From the NCBI GenBank assembly GCA_001632435.1, contig KV423920.1, positions 1-64,000 on the forward strand: 64,000 bases of DNA, given 5' to 3'. Below the pieces are notes generated by a model. The model was not told the DNA's origin. It made no database searches and saw only the letters and a list, made by a program, of their open reading frames with translations. Below are positions 13,001 through 41,055 of this stretch, in pieces. Both the position numbers and the translations under genes were made by a program. The DNA is from Calocera cornea HHB12733. Taxonomy: Eukaryota > Basidiomycota > Dacrymycetes > Dacrymycetales > Dacrymycetaceae. Within the stretch, counting starts at the first letter, position 1. The number at the start of each line of letters is the position of its first letter.

Positions 13001-13087
13001 TTCTGCCGCTCGCTCTCTCGTCTTGCTGGTTGACGCACACACACGAATACGCTAGACCGTAGCCGCAACCACCGCTACGAAACAAGA
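10055..13087. other. Long divergent intergenic region
   Basis: Three kilobases between the divergently transcribed acyltransferase (-) and adenylation (+) genes. No supported coding exon was found on either strand. The region probably holds both promoters and 5' leaders, but I could not assign specific elements. Confidence 0.5.
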
Positions 13088-14985
13088 ATGGCAACAGCGA
13101 CGATGACTACCACCACCTTCTCCTCCTCTTTCACCCTGGCGCCGCCGCCGTCGCTCACCCTCCCGACGCTCACGGGCTCCCTCCTCCCCCCTTCCCAGCC
13201 CTGCGCACCCTCATGCTCCAGCCCCTCCACCCCACGCTCGCGCATCAACCCCCACTCCCTGTCCTCCCTCCCCGCCGCCGACCAAGCCCTGTTCGAGCAA
13301 TACGGCCTAGGCGCACAGCGGCCCGTCCCCCAGCCATTCGTGCACCGCGCATTCGAGGCGCACGCTGCGAAGCAGCCGCAAGCAATTGCCGTGGAGCACA
13401 CCAGCAAAGCGGAGCGCATCACCTACTCCGAGCTGGAGGTGCGCGCGAACCGTCTCGCACGGCGATTGCGCGCCGCGGGCGTGCGGCCAGGCAAGCGGGT
13501 CGTGGTGCTCTGCAGGAGGAGCATCAGCTACGTCCTTGCCATCCTCGCGACGCTCAAGGCGGGCGGGCAGTACGTCCCACTCGACGCGCAGAGCATCACG
13601 GATGAGATGCTCGCGCACGTCCTGGGCGACTGCCAGCCCCAGGTCGTCCTCTGCATGGCGGAGTACGCGGAGCGCGCGCCCCTCGTCACTGAGGAGGTGA
13701 TGGGGAGGAAGATGGTCGTGGAGGATGTTGTGAGGGAGGATGAGGAGCGCCAAGCGGACTCGACAAGGGTCAGGGATCTGAGCAGGGTGGATGATGGCAT
13801 TTATGTTATTTATACGAGTGGGACGACGGGCATGCCGAAGGGGGTCGATGTGCGGCATCGGGGTGTTGGGAATGGTGAGTCTTCCGGATGTGGGATGTGG
13901 GATGGTGTTGATGCTTTGATGCAGTCATTTCCGGCCACCCTGGCAACGTCGGCATGAAGCCCGGGATGCGCGTCGCGCAGCTGCTCAACATCGCCTTCGA
14001 CATGTGCGCCTGGGAGGTCCTCGCCTCGCTCTACAACGGCTGCACGCTCTGCCTGCGCGGCGACAGGTACGCGGACTGGGTCGCCGTCCTCCGCACAGTC
14101 GACATCGTCATCTCCACGCCCTCCATCCTCCTCCGGCACGACCCGGCCGCGTACCCGCAGATAAAGCACGTCATCGTCGGAGGCGAGCCGTGTCCGCAGT
14201 CCTTGGCCGACAACTGGGCCAAGCACACGCAGTTCAACAACTGCTGCGGGCCCACAGAGATCAGCATCGCCAACACCGTCCAGCCGCACACGCCTGGCTA
14301 CCCGCTTTCCATTGGCACGCCTATGCCGAACACGAACGTCTATGTACTTGGGCGGGATCCTACCGACCTCGCACCGGCGCGCATTGGCGAGATAGGCTGC
14401 ATGTGGGTCGGCGGCGTCGGCGTCTCCCGCGGGTACCTCAACCTCCCCGAGAAAACCGCCGAGCGCCTCCGTCCCGACCCGTTCGTGCGGTGGGACGGCC
14501 GCTCTCCTAGGCCGATGATGTTCAACACGAATGACCTCGGCCGATGGCGCCCCGATGGCCAGCTCGACCACTGCGGCCGCGCGGATGACCAGGTCAAGAT
14601 CCGCGGATTCAGGATCGAGCTCGACGGCGTAGCGAGCGCCATGACGAGCTGCCCATCGGTGCGCACCGCCGTCGCGCTCAAGGTGGGCGACCAGCTCTGG
14701 GGGTTCTACGCCCCAGCGGATGTTGCCCATGCGGACGTGCGCAAGGCTACGGCGACGGTGCTCCCGGACTACGCCGTGCCGACCCAGTGGTTGGCGCTCG
14801 ACAAGCTTCCCCTGACGCCGAGGGGTAAGGTCGACAAGCACCTCCTAAGGGGCATGGCCCGTCCTGAGATGCCGACCAGCACTAGCTTGCCAGACTTGAG
14901 GGCGGCCAAGGAGGGACGGGTTGAGGCGCCTCTAGGCAGCCCAACCCTCAGCGACAGCTCGCAGGAGAGCGCAGCATCGCGGTAA
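13088..14985 (+). CDS. Free-standing NRPS-like adenylation protein
   Basis: Exons 13088-13874 and 13925-14985 give 615 aa. Adenylation core motifs appear in order: ITYSELEVRANRLARRL (A1), LKAGGQYVPLD (A2), IYTSGTTGMPKG (A3, ATP-binding loop), FDMCAWEV (A4), NNCCGPTEIS (A5), a GEIGCMWVGG block (A6), NDLGRWRPDG (A7), GRADDQVKIRGFRIEL (A8) and LTPRGKVDK, whose lysine matches the catalytic A10 lysine. The protein ends about 45 residues later with a Ser-rich tail, so there is no thiolation domain with its GGxS site and no reductase or condensation domain. It should activate a carboxylic or amino acid as an adenylate; the acceptor must be another protein or a small thiol. Both genomic neighbours are biosynthetic-type enzymes, which suggests a small cluster. 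Confidence 0.85.
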
Positions 14986-16128: not shown

Positions 16129-16184
16129 CACTGCATGTCAGGGCCCGTTTGGCTGGGTTCAGTCCAGCCTCATCAGGTGACCTG
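16129..16184 (+). repeat. Left terminal inverted repeat of the CACTA element
   Basis: About 56 bp starting CACTG and ending CATCAGGTGACCTG. It pairs with 26593-26648. A second weaker similarity (GAGGTGACCTGTTCT at 16210-16224 against GAGGTCGCCTGCTCT read inward on the right side) suggests subterminal repeats. Confidence 0.88.
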
Positions 16185-16413
16185 CGACGACCCGGAATGA
16201 GAACGGGTCGAGGTGACCTGTTCTACAATGCCTTTTCAGGCAATTTGAGATACCCTAGTTAGCCTCTGCCGTTAGTATAGCTGATATAAGTTGTTTTACC
16301 TGCTGTCCAGGCAATTCCAGGAGGAATCCCGCGCGCTGGGCAAGTTCCCCGGCGCCCGCGTCGATAGCAGAGGGCTTTCGAGCCCGTCTTAGATATAACC
16401 TGCGTCAGGCAGG

Positions 16414-16455
16414 TTGGTATGTAATCGATCTGGTCATGAAGACCAGATCAATGTA
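16414..16455 (-). repeat. Palindromic element motif, copy 1
   Basis: TTGGTATGTAATCGATCTGG followed by TC, a short loop and the partial reverse complement GACCAGATCAATGTA (16441-16455). It lies between the left end of the CACTA element and the 3' end of the first element gene. Confidence 0.8.
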
Positions 16456-16583
16456 TTTTATTACTATCTATTCGTAATGACCGCTGCAGGCCAGCCAATA
16501 AGTTAATTGCATTGCTCACAATGCATCGGTCTGTAAAGAAACGCATGACGCCGCCGCAGTATCCAGCAAATCTCCTTCCCCGC

Positions 16584-17932
16584 CTAAGCCGCTGCGAGGA
16601 AGTGTACGACAATGAGAACTGTAGATCGATTTAGCTAAAAAGTTAATAGACTACAAGTAAAAACTCACCGATGGCAAAGACCGCCTTGAGGATCTTGTCC
16701 CCGTTCGCCCAGATCCACTTCGCCGCGATGACGACGGCCTTGCCCACCACCTTCGCAGCTTGCAGCGGGCGCTTCTCGAGCCACGCCTTCACCATGTCCT
16801 TGCGGTAGGACAGGAGGTCCTTCGCCTGCTGCAGGCGCTCCTTGGCGGTGCGCGGGTGCAGCGCCTGGTATGCCTGGTCACCCTCCTTCTTGCCCTTCTT
16901 GAACTCGGGCTCGAGCTTGCGCTCGCTGCGCCTGCGCTGGGCGATCTTGATGCGCGACTCGCGCTCGATAGCGCGAGCCTCCGCCTGGGCGAAGCCGACT
17001 TTGCGCCCCAGGTGACGCCAGCGGACGCCCTCGGCAGCCATCTCGGTCGGGCGGCAGTCGGGGTCGACCTGCAGCTTCTTGGCCGCGAGGGCCTCGGCGA
17101 CGTCGGGGTTGACGTCCTCGTCGTCGTCGTCGTCGAGGTCGGGGGCGGCGGGCTGCTGGGGCTGCTGGGGCTGCTGCTGGGGCTGCTGCTGGGGCTGGGG
17201 CTGGGCGGGCTGCTCGGGCGCGTGAGGCTGCGCCTGCTCGGGCTCGTGCGCCTGCTGTTGCTGCTGTTGCGCCTGGGGCGCCGTATCGACTTGCTGCTGC
17301 TGCTGCTGGTGCTGGTGCTGCGCCTGCTGCTGATGCTGATGCTGCTGCGGCAGCGCGGGCTCGTCGTCGTCGTCATCAAGCTCGTTTGGGTCCCCAGCTG
17401 CATGCCTGGGGGCCTGGGGGACAATCTGGAGAGGGGTCAGTATGACTCCACTCGATTCGGTCTTCGGCGACCGGATCGATTACATACCAACTGCCTTACG
17501 GCAGCTGTATGCGCTCGTCCGGTCGCCGATACTCACCTGGGGATCCCCCTCCACCACGACTACCATCTCCTCGAGGTCCACGGCCGTGAGCGAGGCCGTG
17601 ACCGAGCCCTTCTGCGCGGCGGCCTCGGCGAGGAAGGCCTTGACGAGCGTGACTTGCTCGGGCGTCAGGGCGATCTTGCCGTCGACAATCTTGAGGACGG
17701 GCGACGCTTTGCCCTTGCCCTTGGCTGCGGTCGTGTTGGCGGTGGCGAGCGCGTTGTCGGGGGAGGGGGAGGGGGAGGGGCCGGGGACGGATGAACCGGT
17801 CTGCTCGGCGGGGCGCCAGATGTCGACGAACTTCTCGGCAGCCTCGACACAGTCGACGAGGCCGCCATCGTCAGAGGCGGAGGAGGAGGAGGGCGATCCA
17901 GAGCCAGCGAGAGCGGAGAGCAAAGAGGCCAT
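16584..17932 (-). CDS. CACTA accessory protein 1 (Gln/Asp-rich, unknown)
   Basis: Exons 17932-17537, 17425-16669 and 16618-16584 give 395 aa. The first exon encodes a folded-looking block (GGLVDCVEAAEKFVDIWRPAEQ, later KIALTPEQVTLVKAFLAEAA). Next comes an acidic run, a long Gln/His/Pro-rich low-complexity linker and a second acidic run. A basic helical domain follows (EGVRWRHLGRKVGFAQAEAR, then YQALHPRTAKERLQQAKDLL) and a hydrophobic C-terminus ending VVHFLAAA. The last two exons are joined by a GTGAGT...CTACAG intron. The first intron contains a copy of the element's palindromic motif. No known domain was recognised. Position in the element suggests a TnpA-like DNA-binding or regulatory role, which is inference only. 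Confidence 0.65.
17469..17528 (+). repeat. Palindromic element motif, copy 2 (in intron 1 of accessory gene 1)
   Basis: GACCGGATCGATTACATACC starts at 17469. An apex hairpin (CTGCC TTAC GGCAG) and a degenerate reverse complement reading GTATGCGC...GTCCGGTCGCCG to 17528 follow, so the whole is one long imperfect foldback. It lies wholly inside the intron 17536-17426 and runs opposite to the gene. Confidence 0.85.
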
Positions 17933-18170
17933 TGTCGATGGCCGGGAGCGGTGAGTCGAGGTGATGGAGGAGAAGAGAGGGAGAAGGAGAAGTCGTACGC
18001 CTGTATGCACAAGTGCATACAGGGGTTACCGGATTTGGCTCCGCCGGGTTTAGGGGCAAGTCTTCGAGAACCTGGGCCAGCAACAATGCCTCGAGGCTCC
18101 AGCGAGGCTCAGTGGCAAGGAAGAGTCGGGGAGAAGATGCGATGCGATAATTGGCATCGCATCGCCGTGC

Positions 18171-18195
18171 TTGGTGGTATGTAATCGATTCGGTC
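18171..18195 (-). repeat. Palindromic element motif, copy 3
   Basis: GGTATGTAATCGATTCGGTC on the plus strand, in the gap between the two divergent element genes. It is followed by a hairpin GTCGCC...GGCGAC. Confidence 0.8.
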
Positions 18196-18601
18196 GTCGC
18201 CTTGGGGGCGACGATATCCAGGCATTGCAAATCGTCAGTGGCAGCGCGGGAGAGGGGATACGGTCGCCTAGAGACCATTGTAGAGAAGCGTAGCCAGCAA
18301 GAAAGATAAAAAAGGATCGAAAGACGACCATTGTCCAACAATGTGGACAATGACGACCCTGAAATCGGCCTTAGCAAATCGGGACGTCGGCGACGGATGC
18401 AAAGTGGCGTAAAGGGGCGAGCTCATCGCCTCAAGGCCCCTGCTCATCGTCTCTGACTACAACGACCACGTAACTCACTCAAACTGACTGTCAACACCTC
18501 AAACACCAACCAAATTACTGTTTTGTAAGTTATTTTCATTTTCTGATCTATTATTGTGATGTCTAACTATGATATTCAGGTACAACTCGACATCCAAGAA
18601 G

Positions 18602-19749
18602 ATGGACGAGAGTGCGATTCCAAGGGACGATCCAGGGGGTGGATCGCTGTTGCTGCGATATGGGGAGGGGGAGTTAGCCATCCCAGGTGAGTACATTTTG
18701 GACAGCAGCTGTATGCGGCTCGCTGACATTGTTTGCAGATGAAAGGCTCCCCACGATAAGCCAAGAAGGGGTCAGCCCTGAGCAGCGCGTCGAGGCCGAT
18801 GCTCAGGGCGAAGCTACGATTGCGCAAGTCGCGAGCCTCGACAACGACCGGATCGATTACATACCAATTGCTCTCCGCCTGCGGGAGAGCACCCCCGCCG
18901 CCTGCCTGAGGGGCAGCGGGTTCGCCCACACGGAGACGACGACGAGCTCGCACCTCGACATCGCCTCTGTGTCCCCCACCACCCCCGAAGCCGAGAACTC
19001 CCCCTCTGCCAACACAGCGGCCGCTGTGGCAGAAGCCGATGTGGTATCGGCCTCGGGCTCTTCCCCTGCTCTCGTCTCTGGCAGCCATGACGACAGCGCC
19101 GACAGCGTCAACACCATCAGCGCCGACGTCGAGACCGAGCAGGCCAAAGCCAACACACTCCCCAACGCCAACAGCATCGACTCCGTCCTTGAGCTGCTGC
19201 TGGGTCACGACAGCGACGCAACCGACGAACCGCTGCCGAGCTACCAAGAATCACAACTTCTGTCCCCTGTCTACAAGCCCAGGATGAGACGCGTAACGAC
19301 ACCTTCTCCTCCTCCTTCCCCTCCTCCTTCTCCTCCTCCCTCCCTCTCTGCGTCCCCTGCTCCCGCCCCCAAATACGACGCAGGGCTCGAGTGGGCAAGG
19401 AAGCGCGCGCAGAAGAAGATTGCGCGCGAACTCGGCCTTCCTGTNNNNNNNNNNNNNNNNNNNNNNNNNNNNNNNNNNNNNNNNNNNNNNNNNNNNNNNN
19501 NNNNNNNNNNNNNNNNNNNNNNNNNNNNNNNNNNNNNNNNNNNNCACCGCCAACACCTCCCATCCCACCAACACCACCGCCAACACCTCCCATCCCACCA
19601 ACACCACCGCCAACACCTCCCATCCCACCAACACCTCCCATCCCACCAACACGTCGACCCAGCCGTGCGGGCTGTCGACCACGCGTCCCTTCAAGAAGCA
19701 TCGCTCCCTGCTGGGGAGCGCTGTGCGCCTCGTCACTGGCAGGGCCTGA
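18602..19749 (+). CDS. CACTA accessory protein 2 (unknown, contains assembly gap)
   Basis: Exon 1 is 18602-18686 (MDESAIPRDDPGGGSLLLRY), then a GTGAGT...TTGCAG intron, then exon 2 from 18739. The protein is acidic and Ser/Thr/Ala-rich with a Pro/Ser repeat (SPPPSPPPS), then a basic segment (WARKRAQKKIARELGLP) just before a run of 100 Ns at 19445-19544. After the gap a 10-residue tandem repeat (TANTSHPTNT-like) leads to FKKHRSLLGSAVRLVTGRA and a stop at 19749. The true frame across the gap cannot be known; a second frame would end at 19853. A copy of the palindromic motif at 18846 reads through in frame as DRIDYIPI, or lies in an intron I did not detect. Confidence 0.5.
18846..18890 (+). repeat. 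Palindromic element motif, copy 4
   Basis: GACCGGATCGATTACATACC at 18846, followed by a hairpin GCTCTCC...GGGAGAGC (18870-18890). It is inside the open frame of accessory gene 2. Confidence 0.8.
19445..19544. other. Assembly gap (100 N)
   Basis: Exactly 100 Ns, the usual placeholder for a gap of unknown size. It abuts a 30-bp tandem repeat, which probably caused the assembly break. Confidence 0.98.
19545..19655 (+). repeat. 30-bp minisatellite in accessory gene 2
   Basis: Three full units and one shortened unit of CACCGCCAACACCTCCCATC plus CCACCAACAC follow the gap. The period is a multiple of three and stays open in more than one frame, so it encodes a 10-residue protein repeat. More copies probably lie in the gap. 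Confidence 0.85.
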
Positions 19750-20362
19750 GCCCTTCGTCCTATGCTCATCTCCAGATAGTCTTATGCTGGCTTGCCTCCA
19801 TTTCTCCGTTTCCTTCCCTCCCTCCTCGTCACTGCGCTCCCCTGAGGGGGTAGCTCCCACTTTCTCTGATTGAAGCGAGCACGATGTATTAGGCCTTTAG
19901 GGCCGTATCTAACTTTGAATCCACTCGTTCAAAAAACGGTCCCTAGCCCTCCTCGCCTGGCCTCGCCTGGACTGACATCGAGCACAGACGTCCCCCCTTT
20001 CCCCAAAGCCCCACCGCGCCTGTCTCAGCGCATACACGCGCCCCTCTCCACCTCGCGTCCACCTTGTGGGCGTGCTCGCTGCTTCAGACGACGAGCAACG
20101 CGCTGAGGGTCGATGCGGTCATCGACCCTGATCAACACCATCGTCTTGCGCGTCGACCGCACCTCCAACCCCTCCAGCACAACCAGCAACGCAGCGACAC
20201 GGGACGCGCCCCACCCAAGACGCTCTCCAGGACCGACAGTGACGAACGAGAGCGGTGGTAGCGACTGAGGAGCAGAGACGGGCGAGATAATCGCAGCTCG
20301 AGTGCTCAGGTGCGCCCTTGTTGATCAGCCTCCTCTCGTGCGCATACTGACCGCTTCTCAGC

Positions 20363-23300
20363 ATGCCTGCCCGCAAATCCAAGGCGAAGAAGAGACCTCA
20401 GAGTCTCCCAAGATGCCTCTGTGATACGTGCAAGACCGACTCGAGACCCCACGGTCGGATGTGGTCGCCGGACGCACTACGCCAGCATCTCCGGCAGAGG
20501 GACGCCTTCGCCGTCTACTCGGCTACCGTGAAGGCAATCGTACCGAGCGCAACCGCTTCCCAAGACGTCGAAATGGATCCAGAAGGATCAGGATGGGGTC
20601 TAGAGGAGGGCGGGATGCAGGTGGATGAGGATATGGCGCTGTACGACCAGCAGGAGCCTGCCGAACCGTTCATCCAGGCCTCCCCATCGCCTCTCCTACC
20701 CCCCCTCCTCCCTCCTACCACCCCACCCGCTACAGCACCACCATCACCAGCACCACCGTCAGCAGCACCGCCAGCACCGCCAGCACCATCCCAGGCACTT
20801 GAAGAGGCTGCGCGCCCTATTGGGACGACCGTATCGATTACATACCTCCTCGAAGGAGGTATGGCCGGGCCTATCGACGACCTACCCTTTCCCCCTCCTC
20901 CCCTCTCCCCTTCCCCCTCCTCCCCTCCCACCTCACCCATCCTGGCACCCTCTGCTCTTCTCATGGACCTGGATGCACTTCCCCCAACGCAAGCTACTAC
21001 CGACGACGATCAAGGCATTGCTGTCGACGAGCTGGAGATCCCTCTCGGTCTCCCTCCTGCGCCCTACGACTTCAACAGGCCCACGCAGGGCCTGTTGAAA
21101 TCTTTCCTGGAGATGCATGCATATTTTGCAGTGCGGGCTATATGCCTTGTGCTGCTCTATATGCATGCGCGCTGGCAAATGCCCCATGCGGCTTGCGCTA
21201 CTCTGGCGACTCTGGCGTACGAAGTCCTCGAGCACATCTCTGTGCTCCCCGCTCTGGCAACTTTCTCGCCGCAGTCTGCTCCTCCTCGTACGCTGAGGAC
21301 GATATATCGGCGTCTGGGGCTCTGGGATCGATTCGATGTGCGGACACTGTGCCCAAAGTGCTGGAGCTTTGAGGATTTCGATCACGCTGAGTTGGACGCA
21401 GATTTGCAAGAGGAACTCGGGCTTCTAGACGGTGACGCTGGGACTGACGTGCGCTCTGACTGGCAGCGCAATTGCCCGAGACCTGAATGCGCAGAGCCCC
21501 TCTATACTGATGCAACGCGCTCTGGAATACCTCGGGCTATACGATCTGCGCCTTACGACCTTCTCTCGATGCAGCTCGCCGACTTTCTTGGGCAGCCTGG
21601 CTTTGAGGACGCCTGCGAGTCCTATCTCGACGCCAAGGAGAGCCTTTCAGGCGTTTATGCGCGCCTTCAAGATGGCAGCGTATGGCAGGACATGCCAGCG
21701 CCAGACCAGAGCCGCTTCTTTCCCCGCTGTCGCACCGAAGCCGCAGAACAAGCAGAGCTGCGCCTGGGTGTCATGATTTCGATGGACTGGTGAGTCCATC
21801 GGTCTCGCTGCCTCCACAACTAACGCCCTTGGCAGGTTCAATCCCAGCCAGTCCAGCGTCGCCGAGAGTCACTCCACGGGCCCCCTCTCCGTCTGCATCG
21901 CGAACCTCCCCCCGGAGCTGCGATATCGAGTGCAGAACCTCTGCCTCGTTGGAATCCTACCCGGTCCCAACGAACCAAACGCAGACCAGCTGCAGCGATT
22001 CCTTCGACCGCTGGTGGATGATCTGATCCGCCTCTGGGAGGATGGCATCATCATTCGAACTCCTAAGAGTCCTACAGGTGCGTCTGAACGACCGGTCGAT
22101 TACATACCAAGTCGCTCACCGCTTTCCTCTCCCTCAAGGCCGCAGAGTCCGCGTAACCCTGCTGGGCATCGTCTGCGATCACCCGGCACTCTGCAAGATG
22201 GTTGGCTTCGCCGACCAACGACATAATCGGCACCCGTGTACACAGTGCCACATCACCCGCGAGCAGGCTGCCGAAAGCGCTTGGGACAACGAAGGTGTCG
22301 AGCCTCGAGATGGGCAACTTCACAAGCGCCGAGCCGCACAAATGCACCGCTACGCGATGCAGAACACACCCGCCAAGAAGATCGACAAGTACTTCAACCA
22401 GCACGGGGCGCGCTGGTCCGAATTCAATCGACTGAAGTACTTCGACCCCGTCATCATGGGTGTCATCGATCCGATGCACACTTTCCTTCAAGGCTTGACG
22501 AAGACGCAGTGGTATGGGCAATGGGTCAAGGGAGGGAAAGACAAGGTGAAGGTCCTCAGAGCTGGTACAGGCGCGGGCAGGGAGCGAGAGCTCGACGAGA
22601 TTCATGCCAGATTGGCCACGGTGCGTTTCTCAGCCCGCAGTTCTCCAAACCCAGCTGACTTCGAACAGTTTGAGATGCCAACCTGGTTTGCCAGGCTGCC
22701 AACCCAGGTTGGAGAACCTGCTGGAGGCAGCTTGACTTCGGACGAATGGAGAGCCCTCGCCGTGCTCTATGGCCCCGCCGCGGTAAGCACCCTCCTCCTC
22801 CTCCTCCTCCTCCCCAGCTGACGATCTTGCAGATCCCGCCTGTGCTGCTCAAGGCGTCAAGGGAGGATCCAACGACGAGAACGCGCGACGACGCCAAGGA
22901 ATCGGACGAAGACCCGAGGCCGCGCGTGCACCCAGATGCCGCCCGCAACTACCTCAAGCTGGCCACCTACCTCAAGATCATGATGCGGAGGGAACTCACA
23001 GAGGGAGAAGTGGTCCGAGCCACTGAGGTGTACGTTGACTACGTCAAGGAATATCGCAAGGTGCGCCTTTGGACCAGATCGATTACATACCAACAGGGCT
23101 TGCCCTGTTGGCGCTTCCCTCCCTCCCTCCCTCCCTCCCTCCCTCCCTTGGAGTATCGACTGGTCGTTTAGACGACCAGATCGATTACATACCAACAGGG
23201 CAAGCCCTGCTGGCGCTTCTCTCCGTCCCTCCCTCCCTCCCTCCCTCACCTCTCGCTCTCACCTTTGCCCAGATCTACGGCACCGCGAATGTCACCCCAA

Positions 23301-24322
23301 CATTCCATTGGGTGATGCACATGCCAGCTCAAGTGCGAAGATACGGGCCCGTCCATGGGTTTTGGACGTTCTTATTCGAACGCCTCAACAAGGTCCTGAA
23401 GACCTTCGAAACCAACGGGCACAAGGGCGGCGCAGTGGAGCTCACCTTTGCCCGCGAGTTCAAGCGAGAGATGGCTATCTCGCGCATGGTAAGCCATCTT
23501 CTACATTGATGTTCATACTAACTACTGTGCAGCACACTGTGCTAGCCAACCAATGGCGGGACCCCCTCGCCCGCCTCATTGCCACCCGGCTGCTCGTCAG
23601 TCCTCGAGACCTCGCCCGCGCCGGCACTTTGACTGCGCTCGCCGCCGAGGCTCAGGACTCTGCACAAGCGCAGCTCTCGCAGCGGTCTCTCCCGCTTGGC
23701 AGCGGCACGCCGCGCCCGGTCGACGACAAGCTTCAACAGCAGCTCCTGCGCTGGTATCGACGCACGTACCCGCAGCTGGCGCTCCATCTCCCCAGCGATG
23801 CCAGAGCTCCGCGCCTATGCCGATTCCTCAGCTGTAAGGCGACGTGGTATCGGCAGTTCCAGCTCGATGGCAAGCGCATCTCAACCAGCCCCGAGGAGAA
23901 GAAGAACAAGGGCAACTCGCTTGTCCTTGCCAAAATTCGACGGCGGTTGCAGTGGGTTGGCGAGCTGCGAGAGATCTTCGAGCACCGCCAGCCAGGCATC
24001 GCTGGCAAGCATACTTTCGCCGTCGTCGCCTGGCTCGTCCCTCTCTCAGATCCTCCCGCGCACGCCGAGCTCTACCAGGACTTCCCTGAGCTCGAGGTCG
24101 AGTTCTGGCAACATCGGCAGTACCACCATGGCGACGATGAGTTCGCGCCCGATTCTCTCGTGCTCGCGGACAACATCGCGGGAGTCGCATCAAGATGCGA
24201 GCTGGAGGTTGAGGGCAGGAAGGTGTGGGTGACCACGGGCATGAGCAAGGTGAGTACTGTTGACTGTATCCATTCACAGAAGGCATGCTAACACTATTGT
24301 ACAGAACGGGCGATCCTTCTAA
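20363..24322 (+). CDS. tnp2: Tnp2-family CACTA transposase
   Basis: Eight exons (20363-21789, 21836-22077, 22139-22620, 22669-22782, 22833-23060, 23273-23488, 23533-24249, 24305-24322) give 1147 aa without a stop. The N-terminus is basic with a CLCDTCKTDSRPHGRMW zinc-binding-like segment and a Pro-rich linker. The Tnp2 core starts with MISMDWFNPSQSS, where the Asp fits the first catalytic acid. It continues LSVCIANLPPELRYR and GILPGPNEPNADQ, then GFADQRHNRHPCTQCHITRE. VIDPMHTFLQG has an Asp that fits the second acid, and GPVHGFWTFLFERLNKVLK has a Glu that fits the third. The enzyme would cut and join the element ends in the nucleus. Introns 2 and 5 carry palindromic motif copies. Confidence 0.88.
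20827..20862 (+). repeat. Palindromic element motif, copy 5 (in transposase exon 1)
   Basis: GACCGTATCGATTACATACC with the hairpin ATACCTCCT CGA AGGAGGTAT (20842-20862). It lies in the Pro-rich linker coding part of exon 1 and keeps the frame open. Confidence 0.75.
22090..22110 (+). repeat. Palindromic element motif, copy 6 (transposase intron 2)
   Basis: GACCGGTCGATTACATACCA, one base shorter than the consensus. It occupies most of the 61-nt intron 22078-22138. Confidence 0.85.
23072..23110 (+). repeat. Palindromic element motif, copy 7 (transposase intron 5)
   Basis: GACCAGATCGATTACATACC followed by the perfect hairpin CAACAGGGC TT GCCCTGTTG (23091-23110). It is in intron 23061-23272 and is followed by a CTCCC tract. 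Confidence 0.88.
23174..23214 (+). repeat. Palindromic element motif, copy 8 (transposase intron 5)
   Basis: A second copy in the same intron, 102 bp after copy 7, again followed by CAACAGGGC...GCCCTGCTGG and a CTCCC tract. It is preceded by its own hairpin TGGTCGTTTAGACGACCA. The two copies make intron 5 (212 nt) much longer than its neighbours, which suggests local duplication of a motif-bearing unit. Confidence 0.88.
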
Positions 24323-24493
24323 CGAATTAGCTATGCAGGCAAGCCTCGTCTTCGTCTTTGTGCCTTTTTCTTTTTTTTTTTGAGTTTTCTTGCTGATCTT
24401 TTCTTGGGTAGGGACTTTCCATAGTACAATCTTAATGATAAGGTAAGTTTCGTGCTCACAATGGTATTTGGGACTGACCTTGATTTCACAGAG

Positions 24494-24526
24494 TTGTAAT
24501 CGTTCGGACCGGAACGATTACATACC
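24494..24526 (+). repeat. Palindromic element motif, copy 9 (overlaps stop of accessory gene 3)
   Basis: TGTAATCGTTC and GAACGATTACA form 11-bp arms around a short centre. Read on the minus strand, the TAA inside TATGTAATCG is the stop codon of accessory protein 3 at 24518-24520. Confidence 0.8.
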
Positions 24527-26230
24527 ACCCTCCTCATCCTCCCCGATCATCTCCAAGCAGACCGCCTCGGGCAGGCCCTCAGGGAAGCCCTCCTTCGTCG
24601 CCCAGTGCTTCCACTTGCGCGCTTCGGTCTTCGCCCATTCGGGGTCGACCATAAAATCGTAAGGCTTCGACTCGGACCTTGGCATCCAGTTCGTGGTATG
24701 CCCGCAATCGATCCTTCTTGTAGGTTCGCGCGGTGTCGCCTTCCCTGCACCGCTGGCATCCATCTCCACAGGGCGCGTGCGGATGTAGTCTTTGACGAGG
24801 CCGTTGATGGTCTCCCAATACTGCTCCAGGTGAGTACTGGATCATTTCGCAAACCAAGGACTCACCTTCTGATTCATCCAAACAGGGCGACGGCGCTCCC
24901 ACACGTTGAGGTGGGGGTTGTCCCTCTCCTCCTCGGTAATCTTGCGGGTTGCGTAGAGCGCATCGCGCCATTCCTGAGTCTTCGCGCCGTCCTCGTCCCC
25001 GCTCCAGTCGTCCCCCATCCAATCTCCGTGCACGAGCGCCTTCTTCACCGCATCTTTGTCCAGGCCGCGCTCCTTGCAGAATGGTTCAAGCGCCTTGGCA
25101 AGCAGGCCGGCATGCTGTGCATTGGTGAGTTCGACATCTGCAGAGACAGCACAACCGACTCACAGTTTTGCGACGCTCAACCCTCCTCGCTGCGCTCTTT
25201 TCCTTCCTCTTCTTCTCGCCGTGATCCTCCACCTCCTTCTGCTGATCTTTGTAGATCTTCGCCAGCCCAGGCCACACAGCACGCGCAAGGTCAAGCAACG
25301 TAGCCTTCGTCAGCCAAGCTTCGCGACACTCTGTGGCGACTTGAGAGTCGTCATTGTCCTGGAAGGGAGTTGGTATGTGATCGATCCGGTCCTGATAACC
25401 CCTTGCTACTCACCAACTCTGCTTCCAGGACAACCTTGGCCGCCCTGGTCATGATCGCCAGATTCGCCTTGGCCTTCATGTTCTTGGAGAAGTCCGGCAG
25501 CATGCGCACGGGCTGCAGAGCTGCAGAGCTGTCCGAGTCTTCGGCCGCTTCGACCTCCTCTTGCTCCAGCTGCGGCCCTCCTTTGGAGGGCATGATGCCT
25601 CCCGTCTTGAAGCCGATGATCGTGTGAATGGCCTCGCGGACCTGGGTCTGCTCGCGGTGAGTGTCCATCCCCTCGGCGAGCAGCAACTGACACTCACGAG
25701 CAGGTACGTGCGTGCCTCGACCTCAGCTTCGCTGAGCAACTTGCGCTTCTTGCGCCCCACGCGAGTGCTTTGGGGCGTGGGCTGATCGCTGTCGGCATCG
25801 CTGGCGTCGGGGACATCGGGCATCCTGGTCGGCCTCGTCCTTCTCTTGATCGTGCCGCCTTCGGACGCCTGCTCGAGAGAGTCGACGCGATTCTCGAGGC
25901 GCAAGATATGGTCGACGATGGGGCTGGGAGGCAGCGAGATCGTGCCGCTATTGGGGGAGTCGTTGGGCGTTCCCATGAAGGAGCTGCTGAGGGATACGGC
26001 GGAGGACGAGGGAGGGCTGCAGGGAGGGGAAAGGATCGATTACATCTGTTGGTATGTAATCGATCCGGTCGTGCGCACAAGACTGACCTTCCGTTGCCAG
26101 CGAGCCCCGCCGCAGTGATGAAGAGCTGCCTGAAGCTCTCAAGCTTCTCCACCGACCAGTGCTGCATGCCGAGACTTTCGCACAAGCGCACCATCTGCTC
26201 CGAGGGCGAAGAAACATTCGCGATCGACAT
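24518..26230 (-). CDS. CACTA accessory protein 3 (unknown)
   Basis: Six exons (26230-26088, 26016-25698, 25647-25414, 25358-25164, 25114-24866, 24820-24518) give 480 aa with every join in frame. The N-terminus MSIANVSSPSEQMVRLCESL is followed by a coiled-coil-like stretch (IVDHILRLENRVDSLEQ) and a basic run (RRTRPTRMP, then VGRKKRKLL) that could be a nuclear localisation signal. A helical middle comes next, with Lys/Arg-rich KKRKEKSAARRVERRKT, and the end has Trp-rich segments (DYIRTRPVEMD, KWKHWATKEGFPEGL). No named domain recognised. It is convergent with the transposase gene (195 bp apart). Introns 1 and 3 carry palindromic motif copies, and the stop codon lies in another. Confidence 0.68.
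25370..25391 (-). repeat. Palindromic element motif, copy 10 (intron 3 of accessory gene 3)
   Basis: TTGGTATGTGATCGATCCGG plus TC on the plus strand, wholly inside the 55-nt intron 25413-25359. It is the same orientation as the gene. Confidence 0.88.
26033..26070. repeat. Palindromic element motif, copies 11 and 12 as an inverted pair
   Basis: GGATCGATTACAT (26033-26045) faces its exact reverse complement ATGTAATCGATCC, part of a full minus-strand copy at 26049-26070. The pair forms a clean hairpin inside intron 1 (26087-26017) of accessory gene 3. Confidence 0.88.
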
Positions 26231-26592
26231 CTTGAAGAAGAGGAGAACGAACCGAGGAGAGGAGAGGGGAAAGAGGCGTCTGTATGCGCAGAGGATGGGG
26301 GGCGAGTTTATTATAGGTGGGAGCAGGCGATCTGCTCTTGTCTGTGATATGGGGCCGCAATACCGGTTTAGCTACTGTAATTCCAGAACGGGACAGCATG
26401 ATCGGCAGGGGCTGAACAGCGCGCGTTACAAGCTACCTGGGCTGCACTGAGCAATAATGGATAATATTATCTATTCTAAAAGTACTAGAGACAGCCTGAT
26501 CTACAATATAGAACAGACCAATAAGGTCGTATAGAAAATAATCTACTACAATCAGAGCAGGCGACCTCAACATCGCTGCCCTGACCTCACAT

Positions 26593-26648
26593 CAGGTGAC
26601 CTGATGTGGCTGAGCTGGCCTCAGCCAATCAGTCCCTGACACGCAGTG
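26593..26648 (-). repeat. Right terminal inverted repeat of the CACTA element
   Basis: Reverse complement of the left terminus with about 11 mismatches in 56 bp. It ends in CAGTG and is followed by the ATT target-site duplication. Confidence 0.88.
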
Positions 26649-39586: not shown

Positions 39587-41055
39587 ACGCTGAGATCTAC
39601 TGAACGACTGTGCAGCTCTTCGCCCATCCCTGCCGGATTGCCCGCGGCGGCCATAGCGAGCGAGACCTCACTCTAGCTTCGTCGACCTTGGCATGGTCAG
39701 TGTTCGACTCGGAGAGGACATGCGGAACTCAACTTGTTGAATGCCTCGTCATTCAAACCTAGGTTTTACAGAGTGACATCCTTCATTGATTCGACGGTTC
39801 TATGTCGACTTCGGGGAGGCGGGAGGACTAACCCTTCTGCTGTGCTGTGCTTGCCTCATCTACGAAAAACAGCTGCTAGGCATCAGCACTACGATATGTG
39901 GAACAAGGGGAGAAGGACACATCTGCATCCGCCAGATGCTCGAGCAGCAGATGTGTGCATCCTGGACTGTCGGACTGGGATGGGGTGGGGGGAGGCAGGC
40001 AGCTGATGGGGAGAATGGGGCTCAATGCTGGTGTGAAAGTGCTCGCCCGGGCGCCAGGGGTCAAGGGACTGTTTGCGCTAGCGAAGGTGTACCTTGGTGC
40101 ACAAAGGTGCATCAGGAGATGGAGGGATGACAGCACTTTGCTTGGGTGCATCGGCATCTGGTACTCGCTGAGCTGGGATGCTGAGTGGCTTGCGTTGGGC
40201 CTAAGCGTGACTGTGATGAGCCTATACGCCGCCTCAGTGCTGCATGCTCTTCAGGTCTGCCTGCCCCTCATTACCCTGGGATGCCTGTGCTGATGATTGC
40301 CACAGATCATTATTCACTTCCCTCTCACACTTGGCTCAGTATATGAACCCAATGACTTCTGCTGAGTCGGAAGCAGCAAAGGTTGTCGAACTCGTACTTA
40401 AGTGTATTTAGAAGATGGCTCGCTCAATGGTGAGGTACGGCAAGCTTGAGCAGGGCAACCCTGTGCTGGTCAAGAAGTCTCTGAACCTAATGGTGCGGAT
40501 CATGGTGCCACTGTTTTATCATAGCATGGAGAATGTGTGCTTTGTGTTGAAGGAGCGGGAGGGCCAGCAGAGGCGGAGGATGGTGCGTACTTTGCTTTGC
40601 AGCATTGAGTTGATTGGGATTGACAATGTGCAGATACACATGCCGAGCGACATTGTTTTCTACAACAGCGGCTGATGTCGGCACACCGCTTGGGCACATC
40701 ACAACTGTCGACTTCTCCACAGACAGCAAGCATACTACAATTGCAATTTCAATTATGATTGCAAACAGCAAGGGGATGGCACTGCTTAGTATAACGTGGG
40801 GGATCAGAGACCGGGTCAGATCAGGGACCGGGTCACTCACCTATTTTTTGCTCTTTCCCTAATTTTGAACCTCTCCAGCGCGTGGGACCGTATCCAGTTC
40901 ACCGTGTGTCAATGCGAATTCAGGAAATATGATGTTTTGGTTGAGTTGCAGCACGCCTAAGTTCACCAGAAAGGGAGAACTGAATAGGATGACCCGGTCC
41001 CTGATATGACCCGGTCTCTGATCTCCCACGTTACCAGTGTTCACATTGTCCACAT
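39587..41055 (+). pseudogene. Decayed UTP18 copy, interrupted by a MITE
   Basis: Colinear matches to UTP18 are visible: AGCTCTTCGCCCATCCCTGCC (39617) against the start of the gene, 39960-40250 against the WD-repeat part at 44655-44940, 40435-40580 against 44945-45085, and 40625-40795 against the last exon. About 1 kb of the middle is missing and there are frame breaks. Differences are mostly CpG to TpG or CpA: GCGGGCGTGAAAGCGCTCGC in the gene reads GCTGGTGTGAAAGTGCTCGC here. The 3' end is split by the 238-bp MITE at 40794-41031, after which the match resumes with CCAG. Confidence 0.88.
40794..41031. mobile_element. 238-bp MITE with 42-bp terminal inverted repeats, TA target
   Basis: Ends start ACGTGGGGGATCAGAGACCG and ACGTGGGAGATCAGAGACCG (right end read inward), with about 40 of 42 bases paired. 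Each terminus holds two near-copies of GATCAGRGACCGGGTCA in tandem. TA flanks both sides (40792-40793 and 41032-41033), as for Tc1/mariner-type elements. The interior has no coding capacity. Removal of the element with one TA restores a sequence colinear with UTP18 around 45290-45300. Confidence 0.9.

Follow-up and report, generated by a model that had tools for sequence, protein, structure and literature searches.

In soybean CACTA elements (Tgm), subterminal motifs of 17-20 bp have been described that combine a GC-rich with an AT-rich part, form stem-loop pairs and vary between families under conserved terminal inverted repeats (TIRs) (PMC2613891, as described there). For the related question of activity, activation of Spm by TNPA is reported to correlate with demethylation (PMC10398659, PMC1636069). 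In the account given in PMC5735166, VANC binds family-specific motifs in the introns, intergenic regions and terminal non-coding regions of its own element, along which methylation is reduced. At issue is how a transposon family comes to activate itself and no other. Here, we describe an array of ~20-bp motifs running through the body of a CACTA-like element of the fungus Calocera cornea HHB12733, found in a stretch of 64,000 nucleotides (contig KV423920.1, positions 1 to 64,000; hereafter the window), and comparable arrays in related elements of the same genome. The array is a real, maintained feature of the whole group; its function is what we infer.

The motif array of the window element

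The carrier of the array is a CACTA-like element of 10,520 bp (16129-26648; C7 in the comparisons below). The 20-mer GACCGGATCGATTACATACC, searched with up to three mismatches, had ten matches in the window, spanning 16416-26070, and none in 100 dinucleotide shuffles; no copy was obtained in the other 53 kb. A search with the 12-base core CGATTACATACC revealed an eleventh, shortened copy of 19 nt (22090-22108), the sole further core match in the window (11882, two mismatches) being at chance level (2.4 expected). Together with an inverted arm at 26033-26045 the array amounts to twelve, namely ten copies, the shortened copy and the arm, in agreement with the about twelve element-confined copies reported in a first-pass annotation of this DNA. 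That annotation had also called the 20-mer palindromic, which the 20-mer itself is not. Chance origin of the array was rejected on the basis of the shuffles and of control windows.

Four genes are predicted in the element: gene A (16670-17932, minus strand; exons 17932-17537 and 17425 to ~16670, 3' end uncertain), gene B (18602-19749, plus strand; first intron 18687-18738, divergent product, end uncertain), the transposase gene (20363-24324, plus strand; eight exons) and gene C (24518-26230, minus strand; six exons, 480 aa, no Pfam match). Gene models and introns are predictions from the reading frame and from recurrence in relatives. Removal of seven introns (22078-22138, 23061-23272 and five others) yields an uninterrupted transposase frame of 1147 aa, and these introns were found again in relatives at the same codon and phase. 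Likewise, the frame is kept on removal of introns 26087-26017 and 25413-25359 from gene C and of intron 17536-17426 from gene A.

Six of the eleven copies lie in predicted introns, two in coding exons, one at the gene C stop codon and two in spacers. Copy 1 (16416-16435, minus strand) is located 3' of the gene A coding part and has foldbacks. Copy 2 (17469-17488, plus) lies in the gene A intron, antisense to the gene, and copy 3 (18176-18195, minus) in the spacer between genes A and B. The exon copies are copy 4 in gene B (18846-18865, plus) and copy 5 in transposase exon 1 (20827-20846, plus); they are translated in different frames, as DRIDYIP and TVSITYL respectively, which argues against a protein-level motif. 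Transposase intron 22078-22138 harbors copy 6 (22090-22108, plus, one base short), while intron 23061-23272 harbors copy 7 (23072-23091, plus) and its tandem duplicate, copy 8 (23174-23193, plus), 102 bp apart. Copy 9 (24507-24526, plus) is located downstream of the transposase gene, its complement including the gene C stop codon (24520-24518). The gene C introns 25413-25359 and 26087-26017 contain copy 10 (25372-25391, minus) and copy 11 (26051-26070, minus), the latter facing the inverted partial copy (26033-26045, plus). The earlier placement of at least six copies in predicted introns of three element genes, and of two in open exons, thus held for these gene models.

The outermost copies are found 287 and 578 bp inward from the element ends, and the copies cover 9.7 kb without an end cluster. 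With the doublet of copies 7 and 8 counted once, which was decided post hoc after the data had been seen, the gaps between copies measure 670-1981 bp; under random placement a smallest gap this large has a P of 0.00012 and a spread this even a P of 0.0037 (0.019 with the doublet kept). Apart from the 102-bp duplicate in intron 23061-23272, the sequence common to the copies is the motif alone, without flanks. As the places of the copies are moreover inherited, recent spread of a repeat was rejected.

Inheritance is visible in the elements C26 and C249, with transposases that share 75-76% identity with that of the window. Up to the contig limits, their copies match those of the window in place and orientation; C26 has one additional copy at the left and is without copy 8. 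At eight sites compared between C7 and C26, 164 of 179 motif columns were identical versus 383 of 566 columns in the surroundings, and 139 of 204 columns were identical in four motif-free introns. The motif is under selection at the level of the nucleic acid. The base preceding the core was T in 10 of 11 copies of C7, A in 10 of 11 copies of C26 and A in five of six copies of C249; variants are element-wide.

In the 32-Mb genome the 20-mer had 34 matches and the reversed pattern one. Contigs C7, C26, C114, C143, C149, C239 and C249 carry 33 of the matches and C13 the remaining one, and all eight contigs also have an exact TIR match, so that the supposed restriction of the motif to such elements held genome-wide. 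The C13 match lies 297 bp inward from a TIR, comparable to copy 1 at 287 bp from the left end of the window element; a k-mer scan of this piece (L016) did not reveal a separate array. The end fragment on C13 is adjoined by a 28-29-bp minisatellite (L016:2865-3052). Both element ends are present in C7 and C26 only, and no short non-autonomous copies were found among 26 TIR matches (18 exact, eight with one mismatch; reversed control 11). Near-identical element copies with equal or offset coordinates were observed at C30:1-5190 and C232:1-5189 and at C26:77968-80428 and C149:75311-77771; these pairs represent recent copying or else haplotypes that are duplicated in the assembly.

Sister families with different motifs

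In the genome 16 transposase places were found, of which 12 were scanned for arrays by blindly counting dispersed 10-mers; C149 was represented by a five-copy piece. All 12 of these transposase-bearing elements harbor a body-wide array, and seven different motifs were obtained. Next to the motif of the window element and its relatives (family 1) these are GTCCGACACCAACACATC in family 2 (C51, C19, C30), GTCGGTACGACTTCACAAC in family 3 (C91), CCAGCACTATTACACGA in family 4 (C74), ACACCCCTTACGATGACATTTCAC in family 5 (C183), GACCGTACGATTTCAACAC in family 6 (C13:316-326 kb) and CAGCAGGATGATATTACACC in family 7 (C88). In a test with a spacing filter, run on the scanned elements other than C88 and C149, the most frequent 10-mer was counted 6-14 times in each of the 10 elements, and all 14 control windows stayed at 2-3. 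Ten of these controls are overlapping windows of the same 53 kb, the others being L016 and trimmed pieces of C114, C143 and C239. The other four transposase places carry matches of a known motif or a variant (a variant of the family 3 motif in C30:1-5 kb and C232, the family 6 motif in C19:54-64 kb and the family 2 motif in C180). Genome-wide, motifs 2-6 had some single matches elsewhere, mostly at the maximum of allowed mismatches; their reversed controls had 3, 6, 5, 0 and 3. The first-pass annotation had regarded the body-wide array as unusual for a CACTA element: the lack of an end cluster stands, but the array is not peculiar to one element.

For genes A, B and C, copy order and orientation correspond across families 1-6, as judged by eye, while copy number differs and additional as well as inverted copies occur in family 2. 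Intron slots were compared across nine transposase genes by spliced alignment; seven of the slots bear a motif. The slot at aa831 has a motif in nine of nine elements, whatever the motif of the family, and homologous introns hold each family's own motif. The slots at aa504, 556, 717, 755 and 1086 carry the motif in some families and are motif-free at the same codon and phase in others; the slot at aa946 was found in C13 only (one family), with an uncertain boundary. Since five of the seven slots thus also exist without a motif in another family, the motif enters pre-existing introns and does not make them.

The TIR is common to families 1, 2, 5 and 7; no end was identified for families 3, 4 and 6. 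Transposases of families 1-4 are 61-67% identical to one another, and their identity to those of families 5 and 6 is 50-54%. In the C-terminal part of the gene A protein, identity is 56% between C7 and C26 of family 1, 88% between C51 and C30 of family 2, and 18-27% when families 1, 2 and 4, the ones aligned, are compared with each other. Outside family 1, gene A is barely detectable by sequence search (best E 0.008, C74). This turnover of the motif and of the gene A protein under a conserved TIR and transposase points to gene A as the putative reader of the motif, but does not prove it.

The motif-bearing coding unit of gene B is present once in family 1, twice in C51 and C91, three times in C74 and C13 and five times, with a 102-bp period, in C183 (units at L026:3038-3264, L027:8914-9341, L021:2945-3237, L025:2155-2300 and L028:3159-3445). 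This expansion looks as if driven by the site itself.

Regarding the remaining anatomy of the element, its 15-bp TIRs (left, CACTGCATGTCAGGG, 16129-16143, plus strand; right, CACTGCGTGTCAGGG, 26634-26648, minus strand) differ at one base. Both ends of C7 and C26 read CACTGC[AG]TGTCAGGG and so begin with CAC, as in CACTA/EnSpm elements. The putative 3-bp target-site duplication is ATT on both sides of C7 (16126-16128 and 26649-26651, from the sequence), and C26, the only other two-ended copy, is flanked by ACT and AAT. The transposase contains the Transposase_21 (tnp2) domain of CACTA/EnSpm elements (PF02992, 64.7 bits at a cut-off of 28.6, E 9.1e-18); Pfam matches of the other element proteins were below threshold and ignored. 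The three protein relatives found come from Calocera and Dacryopinax; one of them, annotated as Calocera cornea HHB12733, is matched over 612 of 612 residues by exact 8-mers of locus L025. Gene A had no relative among 236 candidates of the protein collection at E 0.01. Long open frames by the left end of the element (13034-14985) resemble an adenylation-domain protein, presumably ANL or non-ribosomal peptide synthetase-like. Further away, two 17-bp tandem pairs of GATCAGAGACCGGGTCA and its near complement (40802-40835 and 40989-41022) face each other 150 bp apart and are perhaps the ends of another small element.

Function of the array and competing explanations

We see roughly an even chance that the array consists of DNA sites for a sequence-specific protein encoded by the element, whose role would most likely be anti-silencing. 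Recognition sites would then be distributed along the whole element and not gathered at its ends, each family would retain its own ~20-bp motif, and a shift in the specificity of the reader would cause all sites of that family to shift together. Sites would be placed where they are tolerated, in introns, spacers and poorly conserved exon stretches. The protein would cover its own element end to end and keep it in, or return it to, active chromatin, in the way described for TNPA (Spm) and VANC (VANDAL). The best candidate for the reader would be the gene A product, which diverges fastest. Protein binding, gene A as its source and an anti-silencing outcome are suggested by this anatomy. The first-pass proposal of a dispersed binding or silencing-related signal gains support from the confinement to the elements, the conservation in place and the set-wise replacement in sister families. 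The antisense orientation of the copy within the gene A intron and the two spacer copies are as expected if the sites act at the DNA level.

Several observations weigh against this explanation. Pfam analysis of the spliced genes A and C recognised no DNA-binding domain, and a single-sequence fold model of gene A was all helix with a predicted template modelling score (pTM) of 0.28. Gene B also diverges fast (69% identity to C26, 30% to C74) and could be the reader instead. Many sites have foldbacks, which a plain DNA site does not need. In addition, all 33 copies in transposase introns of the nine genes are in sense orientation (32 without the doubtful intron at aa235 of C183; degenerate inverted arms left uncounted), a bias that DNA sites alone do not require. 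Observed/expected CpG ratios were 0.91-0.96 in elements and 0.93-1.03 in flanks and other stretches; without a clear difference, these ratios indicate neither damage by methylation nor protection, and CpG depletion was dropped as a trace of methylation.

The all-sense intron copies are the strongest point for a role in RNA, in which motif and hairpins would be read in transcripts by an element-encoded RNA-binding protein for splicing, export or translation. We consider this unlikely, yet it survives best among the alternatives to DNA sites. Against it, the copy within the gene A intron runs antisense in C7, in C26 and, by placement of the open reading frame, in C51, C30 and C74, and two copies of the window lie in spacers. 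Moreover, the complement of the motif contains the splice-donor-like sequence GGTATGT or GGTGAGT, which could by itself bar antisense copies from introns and is thus a competing reason for the bias. The folding of the sites argues both ways. Ten of the eleven window copies were folded and compared with random sites of the same element, and six formed strong foldbacks (z below -2); the statement of the first-pass annotation that each copy is part of a foldback held for these, while the others did not fall below z -2. Folding was stronger at the sites than at random positions in eight of nine elements (mean z -1.36 to -3.96, against -0.34 to 0.34 for controls), as an RNA signal would favor, and where copies 1 and 9 differ between C7 and C26, the partner arm shows compensating changes. 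Only in C249 and C91 did the sense strand fold better than the antisense strand; elsewhere the two were similar. The array of C183, in contrast, is nearly hairpin-free (mean z -0.59, one of 14 sites below -2). Foldbacks are thus a frequent and partly maintained feature, not an essential one, and a protein dimer that uses an inverted half-site would give the same pattern.

A little less probable again is a function in transposition, with body-wide TNPA-type sites that would pair the ends or compact the element before excision. The motif design does resemble the subterminal repeats described for soybean CACTA elements (PMC2613891), but the 9.7-kb spread, the inward position of the outermost copies and the lack of an end cluster do not fit. 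Furthermore, the ends of C7 carry a palindrome of their own, AGGTSACCT, with three copies within 100 bp of the element ends (16172-16220 and 26590-26606) and none in the body, partially present in C26; this could be the true subterminal site. That a host factor reads the motif and thereby silences or marks the element agrees with the confinement of the motif to elements and is nevertheless very improbable, as selection at the level of the element should remove a harmful tag, while the motif is conserved in place and family-specific. Least credible, and largely refuted, is the first-pass suggestion that a small foldback or introner-like unit makes introns by inserting: copies are often intronic and beside foldbacks, and C183 has the motif in an intron absent from C7, but an introner site without the unit should be without the intron, and the five motif-free slots, including aa504 of C183 (motif-free in C51, C19 and C91), retain theirs, flanks are not common to the copies, the 102-bp duplicate excepted, and the C183 array is almost unstructured.

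Comparison with known systems

Returning to DNA sites read by an element protein, we tentatively propose, at somewhat less than an even chance, that at least seven CACTA-like families in one fungus each possess a private set of ~20-bp tags and their own fast-evolving reader for anti-silencing of the whole element. This would be a fungal counterpart of VANC derived from a TNPA system, in which tag and reader are replaced together while positions, termini and transposase are kept. A literature search whose coverage excluded most subscription papers turned up no account recognised as describing motif arrays along the body of fungal CACTA or dacrymycete elements. If the proposal is true, sequence-specific anti-silencing extends from plant Mutator-like to fungal CACTA elements. 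This one genome provides seven natural variants of the tag, each with its presumed reader, in a common framework whose positions are inherited, so that the specificity switch is testable by swaps, and the dispersed complex 10-mer provides a simple scan signature for further such systems.

Among described systems, fungal EnSpm/Plavaka elements with a TET/JBP dioxygenase are likewise CACTA-related and are thought to evade methylation by a protein of their own (PMC12730594). The element proteins scanned here gave no TET/JBP match, the available text of that source mentions no body-wide motif, and the Plavaka termini given there (TGT..ACA or CATCA..TGATG) differ from CACTGC..GCAGTG found here.

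CACTA elements with TNPA sites (En/Spm, Tgm) share with the present array the length of the motif, its GC and AT halves, stem-loop pairs, differences between families and conserved TIRs, as well as a Transposase_21 element with a fast-evolving presumed reader (PMC2613891, as far as described). Unlike TNPA-type repeats, the array is not clustered by the TIRs but runs through the body including introns and exons, and is absent from the terminal 287 and 578 bp.

In layout it is closer to VANDAL elements and VANC of Arabidopsis, as portrayed in PMC5735166 and PMC10398659, where family-specific motifs occupy introns, spacers and terminal non-coding regions over the whole element and motif and reader change together. 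A family-specific motif over the non-coding parts of the element is also found here, with two window copies in coding exons. VANDAL elements are, by these accounts, Mutator-like with a tandem motif of ~9 bp, whereas the present motif is ~20 bp long, mostly single, ~1 kb apart, inherited in position and often in foldbacks; no VANC-like protein was recognised in the Pfam scan of genes A and C, no VANC sequence being compared. Judged by its anatomy, the array looks like a set of TNPA sites that would be used in the fashion of VANC.

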